Shown: positions 9,105-37,090 of the stretch, one piece after another
Position numbering within the stretch: the first letter of the stretch is position 1
Layout of the letters: the number at the start of each line of letters is the position of its first letter
Assembly (NCBI GenBank): GCA_028287975.1
Contig: JAQBOP010000386.1
Span: 1 to 37,090 of the forward strand
Reading direction: 5' to 3'
DNA: 37,090 nucleotides
Origin: Mucilaginibacter sp.
Lineage (GTDB): Bacteria; Bacteroidota; Bacteroidia; Sphingobacteriales; Sphingobacteriaceae
Notes under the pieces: model-generated
The model's input: the letters and a program-made list of their open reading frames with translations, nothing else
Told to the model about the DNA's origin: nothing
The model's database searches: none
Translations under genes and position numbers: made by a program

Positions 9105-9108
9105 CATT

Positions 9109-9218
9109 GCTTATAGAGAAAGACGGAGGGATTAGACCCTGCGATGTCTTAGCAACCTGTTACTTAACAAGGTGCTACATTCTACTCGGGCCGCTACAGC
9201 CACCCGGGACAGATAAGT
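9109..9218 (+). ncRNA. SAM-I (S-box) riboswitch
   Basis: cttatagagaaagacggagggattagaccctgcgatgtcttagcaacctg...cgggaCAGATAAG matches the S-box core (AGAGA..GGAGGGA..AGCAACC) with closing P1 cttat/ataag; upstream of metH. Confidence 0.9.
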
Positions 9219-9262
9219 GAAAGTCAATACAACACCCGACTTTTCGAAATAAGCTTTTTTTT

Positions 9263-30682: not shown

Positions 30683-31696
30683 GTGAAAATAAAACTTCTC
30701 TCTTCACTACTGATCGGCATTGTTGCAATAACCGCATGTAAAAAAAGCGGGCAAAATCCTGATCCGGGTAACACAGGCACAACAGGCGAAATGGATACCT
30801 ATATATGTGGAAATTTATTTTTAACACCATCTGTTCCGCAAGCCACTTATTGGAAAAATGGTTTACAAACCACCCTTAACAATGATTTTTCAGATGTCTG
30901 TTGTATGACATCGCAGGCTAAAGATGTTTATATACTTGGCGAAGATCATAATGGCGAATGTTACTGGAAAAATGGCATACGCTTTCAGGTAGAAAACAAA
31001 AAAACAAGCTATATCCCATTCGCTATAGCAGTGCAGGGTAATGATGTTTATACTGCAGGCCATTTTAGCGATACTGCCGCCTATTGTAAAAACGGCATTA
31101 CAACAAAGCTTTCAAGCCCTGGCTATAGCGTTGCCACCGGCATTGCCGTAAGTGGCAGCGATGTTTATGTATGCGGCGATTATGCGGCTTCGCCGGGCTT
31201 CTATCATGTACCTTGCTATTGGAAAAATGGCGTCTTAACCTTATTGAATAAAGACATACCAAAAAATGCTACGGCGATAGCTATTGTCGTAAACGGAGGT
31301 GATATACATGTTATAGTTAATGCAGCGTTGACTGATCAAAGTAATCAACAATTAGACCATATTTTTTATTGGAAAAATGGAGTGGTTACGCCTATAGATA
31401 AAGATGTTTCATCATCGGCAACCGGCCTGTGTGTAAGCGGAAATGACGTCTATATATCCGGCGGAGAAAATATTGCTCCCTTTAAAGCGGGCTATTGGAA
31501 AAACGGCACGTTTGTATCCTTTCCGGATATGAGATATTCGTTAGCTATTGCTGTACATGGCAATGATGTATATATAGCAGGTGCTTATTTGTCAGGTGGT
31601 GTTAGTTATGCTGGCTATTGGAAAAACGGAACTATTACTAAACTGAATCAAACTTTATCTTCTTACGCGTTAGGGATAACCCTTGTACCCCGGTAA
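30683..31696 (+). CDS. Putative lipoprotein with seven YWKNG repeats (paralog 1)
   Basis: Lipobox ITAC; repeats ATYWKNG, CYWKNG, AYCKNG, CYWKNG, FYWKNG, GYWKNG, GYWKNG alternating with GNDVYxAG strands. Confidence 0.85.
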   Translation: MKIKLLSSLLIGIVAITACKKSGQNPDPGNTGTTGEMDTYICGNLFLTPSVPQATYWKNGLQTTLNNDFSDVCCMTSQAKDVYILGEDHNGECYWKNGIRFQVENKKTSYIPFAIAVQGNDVYTAGHFSDTAAYCKNGITTKLSSPGYSVATGIAVSGSDVYVCGDYAASPGFYHVPCYWKNGVLTLLNKDIPKNATAIAIVVNGGDIHVIVNAALTDQSNQQLDHIFYWKNGVVTPIDKDVSSSATGLCVSGNDVYISGGENIAPFKAGYWKNGTFVSFPDMRYSLAIAVHGNDVYIAGAYLSGGVSYAGYWKNGTITKLNQTLSSYALGITLVPR

Positions 31697-31702
31697 ATAA
31701 TT

Positions 31703-32752
31703 ATGAAAATAAAATTTCTACCCATACTATTGATCGCCTTTTTGGCGATGACTGCATGTAAAAAAAGCGGACAAAATCCAGGCGCTACGGCATCAACTGG
31801 CGAAGTAGATGTTTATGTATGCGGAACTGTGCTTGTAGCACCATCCTTTACCCAGGCAACCGTTTGGAAAAATGGAATTCCAACTACTCTAAGTACGGAT
31901 CATTCAAGTGTCTTTGGTATAACTTCACAAGGTAAGGATGTCTACGCATTAGGTGAAGACCGCAATGGATCTTGTTATTGGAAAAATAACGTGCGTGTAC
32001 AAGTAGAGAATAATAAAACTAATTATTCAGCAGGCAAAATAGCTGTGCTGGGTAACGATGTTTATACTGCAGGTTTTGTTGATAGTACTGCCGCCTATTG
32101 TAAAAACGGAATTATTACAAAACTTACAAGCCCGAGCGGTTACGCTATCGCTAATGGCCTTGCAATCAAGGGCAACGACGTTTATGTATGCGGTGATTAT
32201 TATTATCATTCTCCCTTTTATAACCATATCCCCTGCTATTGGAAAAATGGTGCCTTAACTATCCTGGATAAGGATACAACAAAAAATTCGACAGCAATAG
32301 CTATTGCTGTAAATGGCAATGATATACATGTTGTTATTAATTCATTGATAAATGAACTTAGTGTACCACAATACCTTGTTTTTCTTTGGAAAAATGGAAC
32401 AATTACCCTTATAGATAAGGACGTTGATTCGCGTGCAACCGGTATATTTATTAATGGGAATGATGTATATATATCAGGAGTTGAAGATGTACCTGTACCT
32501 ATTTCCGGATTTACGGCTGACTACCGCCCGTTTCAGGGTGGCTATTGGAAAAATGGAGTGCTTACTAAGCTTCCGGACATATATAGTTCACAAGCTATTG
32601 CCGTACAAGCCGGCAACATATACGTTGCCGGTGATTATTTGTCAATCGGAGGGGCTAATCCTCAAGCTGCCTATTGGAAAAATGGGAAAATGGGAAAGTT
32701 AGACGAAAACCAAATATCTTATGTAACCGGAATTGCGCTGGTACCTAAATAA
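31703..32752 (+). CDS. Putative lipoprotein with seven YWKNG repeats (paralog 2, tandem duplicate)
   Basis: Same N-terminus (MKIKFLPILLIAFLAMTACKKSGQNP) and repeat order as the preceding gene, 6-nt spacer. Confidence 0.85.
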   Translation: MKIKFLPILLIAFLAMTACKKSGQNPGATASTGEVDVYVCGTVLVAPSFTQATVWKNGIPTTLSTDHSSVFGITSQGKDVYALGEDRNGSCYWKNNVRVQVENNKTNYSAGKIAVLGNDVYTAGFVDSTAAYCKNGIITKLTSPSGYAIANGLAIKGNDVYVCGDYYYHSPFYNHIPCYWKNGALTILDKDTTKNSTAIAIAVNGNDIHVVINSLINELSVPQYLVFLWKNGTITLIDKDVDSRATGIFINGNDVYISGVEDVPVPISGFTADYRPFQGGYWKNGVLTKLPDIYSSQAIAVQAGNIYVAGDYLSIGGANPQAAYWKNGKMGKLDENQISYVTGIALVPK

Positions 32753-34481: not shown

Positions 34482-35531
34482 ATGCATTTTAAAAAGCCCC
34501 TGATTTTTATTATTGCTTTTGCCGCCTTCACGGCGTGCAAAAAAACCGATACCAAGCAAGATACAACCGTTACCCCGCCGGTTATTACACCACCCATTGT
34601 TAAACCAACGGGTACAGATATATATGTTACCGGCACCATCACTACTACCAAGAATATAACCGTAGCGGCTTATTGGAAAAATGGGGTGGCTCATTTACTG
34701 GCAGATAGTACACTATATTCGTTTACCAATGCTATTGCCGTTAAGGATACCGACGTTTATATTGTAGGCATGGTAGACAATGTTGCCACTTATTGGAAAA
34801 ATGGGATACCCAGCCATCTACCCAACTGTACAGAGGCAAATGCCATTACCATTAGCGGACAGGATGTTTATATCGGGGGTATGAGTTACGACGTCTCATT
34901 ATATCACCCTGCTTATTGGAAAAACGGAGCAGCTGTGATATTCACCGATCAATCATGTAACATGGTCAGCGGTATAGCTGTCGTTGGCTCGGATATTTAT
35001 CTGTCCGGTAATGTTGGTTCATCGGGAGGTTTCCAAACGGCGACTTACTGGAAAAATAAAGTACCGGTATCGGTGGCGTCGAATTTGCCGGGCAGCCCTG
35101 TCCCTTATTATCCAAGGAATGTTACCATTGGTGTGGCAGGCACTGACGTTTACATTAACGGGAATGTTCAAAACAAGGCCGGCGATCAGGTCATAGCAAC
35201 CTATTGGAAAAATGGGGTAAGCATCCCATTGATGACCGATCAAACCATGTCGTCCGAAGCGAATAACATAACCGTTAACGGTAGTGATGTATACGCCACC
35301 GGCTATTATGATTATTTTGCCATGTACTGGAAAAACGGCATCGCTAATAAAATTACTGACGGCACACAACAGTTTACGGCTACCGCCCTTATGGTTAACA
35401 ACAGCATCGTCTATATATCAGGTACAAAGGGGTATTCGGACACAAGAGCCGTATATTGGAAAAACAATACGCTTACCCAACTTTCATCGAAATCCTCGAC
35501 AGCCGCGGGGATAGCGGTTGTGCAGCATTAG
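34482..35531 (+). CDS. Putative lipoprotein with seven YWKNG repeats (paralog 3)
   Basis: Lipobox FTAC; AYWKNG, TYWKNG, AYWKNG, TYWKNK, TYWKNG, MYWKNG, VYWKNN. Confidence 0.85.
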   Translation: MHFKKPLIFIIAFAAFTACKKTDTKQDTTVTPPVITPPIVKPTGTDIYVTGTITTTKNITVAAYWKNGVAHLLADSTLYSFTNAIAVKDTDVYIVGMVDNVATYWKNGIPSHLPNCTEANAITISGQDVYIGGMSYDVSLYHPAYWKNGAAVIFTDQSCNMVSGIAVVGSDIYLSGNVGSSGGFQTATYWKNKVPVSVASNLPGSPVPYYPRNVTIGVAGTDVYINGNVQNKAGDQVIATYWKNGVSIPLMTDQTMSSEANNITVNGSDVYATGYYDYFAMYWKNGIANKITDGTQQFTATALMVNNSIVYISGTKGYSDTRAVYWKNNTLTQLSSKSSTAAGIAVVQH

Positions 35532-35621
35532 GCATTGATTATGTTATTTTTTGTTGAAAAGCACTTTTTTTATTTTATGCTTGCTTATTAAAAATATATC
35601 TACTTACTTTACAGACATTAT

Positions 35622-35687
35622 ATGAAACTGATTAACACAACAACCACATCGATTACAACCACCGGCAAAAGCCACGGAGGAAGATAA
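35622..35687 (+). CDS. thrL: Threonine-rich leader peptide MKLINTTTTSITTTGKSHGGR
   Basis: 21-codon ORF with 7 Thr and 2 Ile codons upstream of thrA, resembling the enterobacterial thrL layout; not in the ORF track because of its length. Confidence 0.85.
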   Translation: MKLINTTTTSITTTGKSHGGR

Positions 35688-35722
35688 TCGTATGGTATAA
35701 AACATAAAAAGAAAACCACATG

Positions 35723-35759
35723 AACGCCTTCCTCCACCAAGAGGAAGGCGTTTTGTTTT
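35723..35759 (+). terminator. Attenuator terminator of the thrA leader
   Basis: 12-bp perfect stem aacgccttcctc-caccaa-gaggaaggcgtt followed by TTGTTTT, 14 nt before the thrA ATG. Confidence 0.9.
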
Positions 35760-35772
35760 AAATAACCCTGTA

Positions 35773-37090
35773 ATGAAAATTCTAAAATTTGGCGGGACAT
35801 CCGTAGGTTCGGCTCAAAGTATTCAAACCCTGTTAAACATCTTAAAAGATGAAACAAAACAATCCGGCGCTGATAAACCCGTAGTGGTGCTATCCGCTAT
35901 GAGCGGCGTAACCAACCTGTTAATAGCGATGGCTGAAGAGGCTGCCAAAGGCAATGATTTTACCGCGCAACTGGCCGAATTGGAGAAACGGCACTTTGAC
36001 GCGGCTAAAAGCCTGCTCGGGATTCGCGATCAAAACCCGGCCCTGACCCGCCTGAAGATCAACTTTAATCACCTGGAAGAATTATTGCAGGGCATATTAA
36101 CCCTGCGCGAACTTACCCAAAAAACTCGCGACCTGGTGATCAGTTACGGCGAGCGCTGCTCTACCCTGATGATCAGCAAAATAGCGGCGCAATATTTTCC
36201 GGCTGTTTTTGTTGATGCGTCGGAAGTTATTAAAACCGATAGCTCGTTCGGCCAGGCTAAGGTTAATACCGAATTGACCGAGCAATTGATCCGTGGCCTT
36301 TACCGCGAGAATAAAGATCAGATATTATTTGTTACCGGCTTTATTGGCAGTAACGATGCGGGGCAGATAACCACACTGGGCCGTGGTGGGAGCGACTATA
36401 CCGCCGCCATATTTGGGGCGGCGCTTAACGCGTCAGAGATCCAGATCTGGACCGATGTTAACGGCATGATGACCGCCGACCCGCGCATGGTTAAAAAGGC
36501 ATTTTCGCTATCAGAGCTTACTTATACCGAGGCAATGGAGCTTTCTTACTTTGGCGCCAAGGTGATCTATCCGCCAACCATGATCCCGGCTTTTTTGAAG
36601 AAGATCCCTATCGTTATAAAAAATACTTTCGAGCCTGAATTTGCGGGCACTATCATACAGCATGATTGCAAACCATCAAACCTGGCTATCAAAGGCATTT
36701 CATCTATCAACAATATCAGCATCTTAAATGTTGAAGGCAGCGGCATGGTGGGTAAGTCGGGTTTTAGCGGCAGGCTGTTCTCTTTGCTGGCGCGCGAGCA
36801 GATCAACGTGATATTAATTACGCAATCATCGTCAGAGCATAGCATAACCTTTGCGGTGCAGCCCGGCGATACTGAGCGCGCCCGCCAGGTCATAGAACAC
36901 GAGTTTGAACTGGAACTACTGGCTAAAAAACTAGAGCATGTCGAAATAGAAAAAGATTTGGCCATACTTGCCGTAGTTGGCGAGAATATGAAGGAAACTC
37001 CGGGTGTATCCGGCAAGCTGTTCCATTCGCTGGGCCGTAATGGCGTAAATGTAAGGGCTATAGCGCAAGGATCGTCAGAGTATAATATTT
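35773..37090 (+). CDS. thrA: Aspartate kinase, probably bifunctional aspartokinase/homoserine dehydrogenase I (truncated by window end)
   Basis: MKILKFGGTSVGSAQSI, TLGRGGSDYTAAI, ACT domains (MVGKSGFSGRLFSLL, GVSGKLFHSLGRNGVNVRAIAQGSSEYNI). No stop in the window, so absent from the ORF track. Confidence 0.94.
   Translation, partial: MKILKFGGTSVGSAQSIQTLLNILKDETKQSGADKPVVVLSAMSGVTNLLIAMAEEAAKGNDFTAQLAELEKRHFDAAKSLLGIRDQNPALTRLKINFNHLEELLQGILTLRELTQKTRDLVISYGERCSTLMISKIAAQYFPAVFVDASEVIKTDSSFGQAKVNTELTEQLIRGLYRENKDQILFVTGFIGSNDAGQITTLGRGGSDYTAAIFGAALNASEIQIWTDVNGMMTADPRMVKKAFSLSELTYTEAMELSYFGAKVIYPPTMIPAFLKKIPIVIKNTFEPEFAGTIIQHDCKPSNLAIKGISSINNISILNVEGSGMVGKSGFSGRLFSLLAREQINVILITQSSSEHSITFAVQPGDTERARQVIEHEFELELLAKKLEHVEIEKDLAILAVVGENMKETPGVSGKLFHSLGRNGVNVRAIAQGSSEYNI

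Follow-up and report, generated by a model that had tools for sequence, protein, structure and literature searches.

The closest described system is the leader of the E. coli thr operon, thrL, upstream of thrABC (Rfam family RF00506). In E. coli K-12 GGTAACGGTGCGGGCTGA closes thrL and GCCCGCACC opens the terminator, with GGTGCGGGC:GCCCGCACC pairing; the Thr codons fold back on region 2, and regions 2 and 3 form a duplex with a predicted energy of -23.4 kcal/mol. The element described here lies in the window, by which we mean the whole 37,090-nucleotide stretch of Mucilaginibacter sp. DNA that was analysed. It resembles thrL in having a 21-codon Thr-rich leader, Thr codons in region 1, and a bifunctional thrA as the next gene. 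In both cases the last leader codons form region 2 and pair with the 5' arm of the terminator, using GGTGCGGGC in E. coli and GGAGGAAG in the window. These features suggest that the window element is very probably, like thrL, a ribosome-mediated attenuator of thr operon transcription. The sequence-only reading of this stretch had implied that the layout was novel, but the E. coli leader has the same layout, and the claim fails because thrL also uses its 3' codons as the antiterminator. The window differs from E. coli in the sequence of regions 2-4 and in its longer spacer, which carries conserved AUGGUGUAA and ACCA segments.

The likeness was also measured with covariance models. R1, built from 78 Bacteroidota leaders with no proteobacterial sequence in it, scored E. 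coli thrL at 42.1 bits and hisL at 13, and did not match ilvL. RF00506 (Thr_leader) scored the window at 23.5 bits, under its gathering cut-off of 55, and reached at best 46.1 bits in 20 relatives, most of whose leaders it matched at E<=1. The Rfam scan at the gathering threshold found nothing at the thr leader locus. The similarity of the E. coli and Bacteroidota elements may reflect either shared ancestry or convergence under the same constraints.

Vitreschak et al. in 2004 reportedly predicted some attenuators in the Bacteroidetes/Chlorobi, and literature searches turned up no account of thr attenuation for this Bacteroidota family. R1 also matches Bacteroidota His and Ile/Val leaders, which likewise have a leader peptide run and a terminator but differ from the window element in their regulatory codons and in the operons they precede. 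Among them are a leader with a His5 run ahead of hisG and Ile/Val-rich ones ahead of ilvD, ilvA and ilvE (L243, L233-L235, L197, L237 and L239), and in some of these attenuators the leader 3' codons, for example CGGGGAAG, stand opposite a terminator CUUCCC. Signs of attenuation by leader peptides upstream of amino-acid operons have also been reported in Flavobacterium psychrophilum (PMC9723704). The window element is thus one of a wider set. Bacteroid-trp RNA (RF01692) is listed among the cis-regulatory RNA motifs of Bacteroidetes (PMC2864571); to judge from its name it acts at trp genes, and it gave no match to the window at its gathering threshold.

The leader peptide ORF runs from an ATG at 35622 to a TAA at 35685-35687 on the plus strand and encodes MKLINTTTTSITTTGKSHGGR, 21 codons of which seven are Thr (35637-35648 and 35655-35663). 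The thrA gene starts with the ATG at 35773 on the same strand and runs off the window end at 37090. Its first 439 residues are the aspartokinase part of a bifunctional aspartokinase/homoserine dehydrogenase I; a full-length homologue was seen in a relative, and a relative of the same genus has the operon order thrA-thrB-thrC. Between leader and thrA lies an intrinsic terminator (35723-35759, plus strand) with a 12-bp stem and a 6-nt loop, its arms AACGCCTTCCTC (35723-35734) and GAGGAAGGCGTT (35741-35752) followed by TTGTTTT (35753-35759). Compensatory changes occur in seven of the ten consensus terminator pairs in the leader alignment. The T tract (TTTTGTTTT) is broken by a single G, which counts against the attenuator reading. 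The Thr-rich ORF and strong terminator that the sequence-only reading had placed before thrA are thus present. Upstream of the leader, on the same strand, a TTG (35581-35583) and TACTTTAC (35605-35612) probably form its promoter (35581-35612), a Bacteroidota -33/-7 type assigned by sequence, and similar TTTGC...TACTTTAC/G elements precede the leader in most of the relatives compared. Further upstream of thrA, on its strand, are three similar lipoprotein-like ORFs with YWKNG repeats (30683-31696, 31703-32752 and 34482-35531), apparently paralogues. The window also holds a SAM-I riboswitch at 9108-9219 on the plus strand (68.2 bits).

The 151-nt leader RNA folds to -40.2 kcal/mol (z -6.4 against dinucleotide shuffles), and three segments, all on the plus strand, compete for pairing. 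Region 1 (35643-35663), placed by the free-leader fold and the 1:2 co-variation, consists of the Thr codons and contributes ACCA (35643-35646), CGAUUA (35650-35655), and CC at 35659-35660 and 35662-35663. Region 2 (35676-35696), placed by folds and co-variation, has GGAGGAAG (35676-35683), UAAUCG (35685-35690) and UGGU (35693-35696). Region 3 (35715-35735), from the antiterminator fold without region 4 and the 2:3 co-variation, has ACCA (35715-35718), AUGA (35720-35723) and CUUCCUCC (35728-35735). GGAGGAAG is the exact complement of CTTCCTCC, as the sequence-only reading had said; it placed the leader strand correctly but set CTTCCTCC at 35729-35736, where the true position is 35728-35735. A search of the whole 4.64 Mb genome for the motif pair GGAGGAAG-N10-60-CTTCCTCC gave a single occurrence, and the backwards control gave none. 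In the 1:2 hairpin of the window, ACCA pairs with UGGU, CGAUUA with UAAUCG, and the CC...CC of the last Thr codons with the GG.GG of GGAGG, so that without a ribosome region 2 is held by the Thr codons themselves. Relatives carry a conserved AUGGUGUAA just past the leader, which supplies the 3' strand of this helix (UAAUCG..UGGU in the window) and, with the ACCA before the terminator, also lengthens the antiterminator.

The window leader was folded state by state. With no ribosome and the transcript ending at 35710, 1:2 forms at -15.8 kcal/mol. With the last Thr codons masked and the transcript extended to 35742, 2:3 forms at -19.3 kcal/mol and includes GGAGGAAG:CUUCCUCC, UCGU:AUGA and UGGU:ACCA. 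When the stop codon is masked 2:3 is absent, and with region 4 present only the terminator remains. These masked folds bear out the switch expected from the earlier reading, with stalling on Thr giving 2:3 before region 4 is made and a ribosome at the stop giving the terminator alone. Once the full leader is present, the terminator is favoured at equilibrium in every masked and unmasked state, so the choice between 2:3 and 3:4, and with it termination, would have to be kinetic.

Both alternative helices co-vary. We compared the duplex energy of each leader's own strands with that of swapped strands, using wide fixed segments and one representative per genus from 18 genera in five draws. Own strands matched better than swapped strands for 2:3, between the leader 3' codons and the terminator 5' arm (permutation p 0.0002-0.003), and for 1:2, between the Thr codons and the segment after the leader (p 0.0002-0.005), genus representatives lessening the shared ancestry in these tests, of which some remains. 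The negative control of region 1 with region 3a showed no co-variation across all 85 leaders (p 0.31). The proposal that the leader's Gly-Gly-Arg codons are the antiterminator strand is therefore supported across genera, and the 1:2 pairing appears to be under selection. Compensating replacements are clear: one genus (L054, L063) has GCGGGAC:GUCCCGA or GCGGGGC:GCCCCGA in place of GGAGGAAG:CUUCCUCC, and ACACCAU:AUGGUGU is replaced by AGCACCAU:AUGGUGCA in L028, by UUAUACCAU:AUGGUAUAA in L048 and, in another genus, by CUAUUACAACAU:AUGUUGUAAUAA in L062. RNAalifold on the whole alignment returned the terminator alone, probably because the alternative helices are mutually exclusive and region 1 shifts by codons.

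Of 151 genomes of the family, 150 have a thrA homologue, and a leader of this kind with its terminator lies upstream in 85 of the 90 homologues read. By script, 83 of these 85 leaders have a clear Thr-containing ORF (median 22 codons, with six Thr and four Ile) and two have no clear leader ORF. The design is absent from the remaining five homologues, four with a divergent ThrA and one with a broken leader. Run at E<=0.01 on 151 genomes sampled from the order, a set that overlaps the model's own source sequences, R1 detects the thr element in 150; relatives with the element include Mucilaginibacter, Pedobacter, Daejeonella, Sphingobacterium and Parapedobacter, and there are weaker matches in Pontibacter, Epilithonimonas and Empedobacter. 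Weak R1 matches in the window's own genome (at C374 and C284) were rejected, as they look like the ends of coding genes with terminators and not leaders. One relative (L003; G101:C1:1648605-1649560, minus strand) carries, some 640 nt ahead of its intact thr leader, a second and degraded copy, and the 187-aa ORF between the two has a weak match to RNA ligase 1 (PF17720); the duplication apparently came from an insertion.

The locus thus has a leader ORF with a run of Thr codons, a terminator before thrA, a mutually exclusive 2:3 antiterminator, a 1:2 pause or protector hairpin, and an operon that makes the amino acid sensed. In the mechanism that we infer from these parts, the leader peptide would be translated as it is transcribed. 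With ample charged tRNA-Thr the ribosome would reach the stop at 35685 and cover region 2, both GGAGGAAG and the segment downstream, allowing the 3:4 terminator to form ahead of thrA. With Thr-tRNA short it would stall at the Thr codons and break the 1:2 pairing, and region 2, free just past its leading edge, would pair with region 3 through GGAGGAAG:CUUCCUCC and UGGU:ACCA, giving read-through into thrA. With no ribosome, 1:2 would form and then the terminator. The gap between the last Thr codon and region 2 is 12 nt in the window (family median 11 nt, IQR 8.5-12), which roughly matches the reach of a ribosome's footprint to its leading edge, so that a ribosome stalled at the last Thr codon would just free region 2. 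The exact footprint at the stop would differ in some genera, as there the leader stop lies further downstream, past AUGGUGUAA.

The sequence-only reading saw no need for a separate 1:2 hairpin, and an attenuator in which ribosome masking of GGAGGAAG alone counts draws some support from the window sequence: without region 4 the best fold (-23.4 kcal/mol) contains 2:3 rather than 1:2, so 1:2 is not decisive at equilibrium. However, the free leader can fold its Thr codons onto region 2 before region 3 is synthesised, and this pairing co-varies across genera in the family. We consider an attenuator without the hairpin improbable, and the suggestion that none is needed does not stand. Still less credible is that the terminator closes an upstream transcription unit and that the Thr-rich ORF is incidental. 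A terminator just before a gene could serve the gene's neighbour, and the ORF at 34482-35531 is on the same strand, but throughout the family the terminator is kept before thrA together with the Thr run and region 2, with co-variation among them, and a promoter-like element separates the leader from the upstream gene. The preferred reading is the thrL-type attenuator with its 1:2 hairpin.

Flavobacterium, Cytophagales and other Bacteroidota have a different Thr leader upstream of thrA (L138 1849-1963, L163 1842-1956, L210-L227), in which a Thr/Ile run is followed by a small hairpin, a CAUAU motif and a second hairpin. A script found the small hairpin in 34 of 38 such leaders, mostly with the stop codon in or beside its loop, as in ACCCC-UUA-GGGGU, ACGGG-GUAA-CCCGU and ACAACCC-GUUA-GGGUUGU, and in 30 of the 34 a conserved CAUAU follows within about 17 nt. 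This second type has no U-tract terminator before thrA, and Rfam gave no match in the 15 loci tested. A model of it, R2, matches 18 of 149 genomes of the phylum, with every best match directly upstream of thrA. It is possible, if doubtful, that the Bacteroidota control thrA by threonine in two ways that follow the ThrA lineage, one the classical attenuator and the other the CAUAU leader without a U-tract terminator. If so, that leader would represent another type of ribosome-sensed switch.

The window's thr attenuator is genuine, well conserved and of the ordinary kind; its mechanism is the textbook one and not new. Amino-acid attenuators are little annotated in the Bacteroidota, and Rfam misses this thr leader at its own cut-off. 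The leader set provides a seed alignment for extending Rfam and sets apart the lineages with another device before thrA. The textbook layout, including the use of the leader codons, is employed family-wide in these Bacteroidota, with co-variation on both alternative helices.
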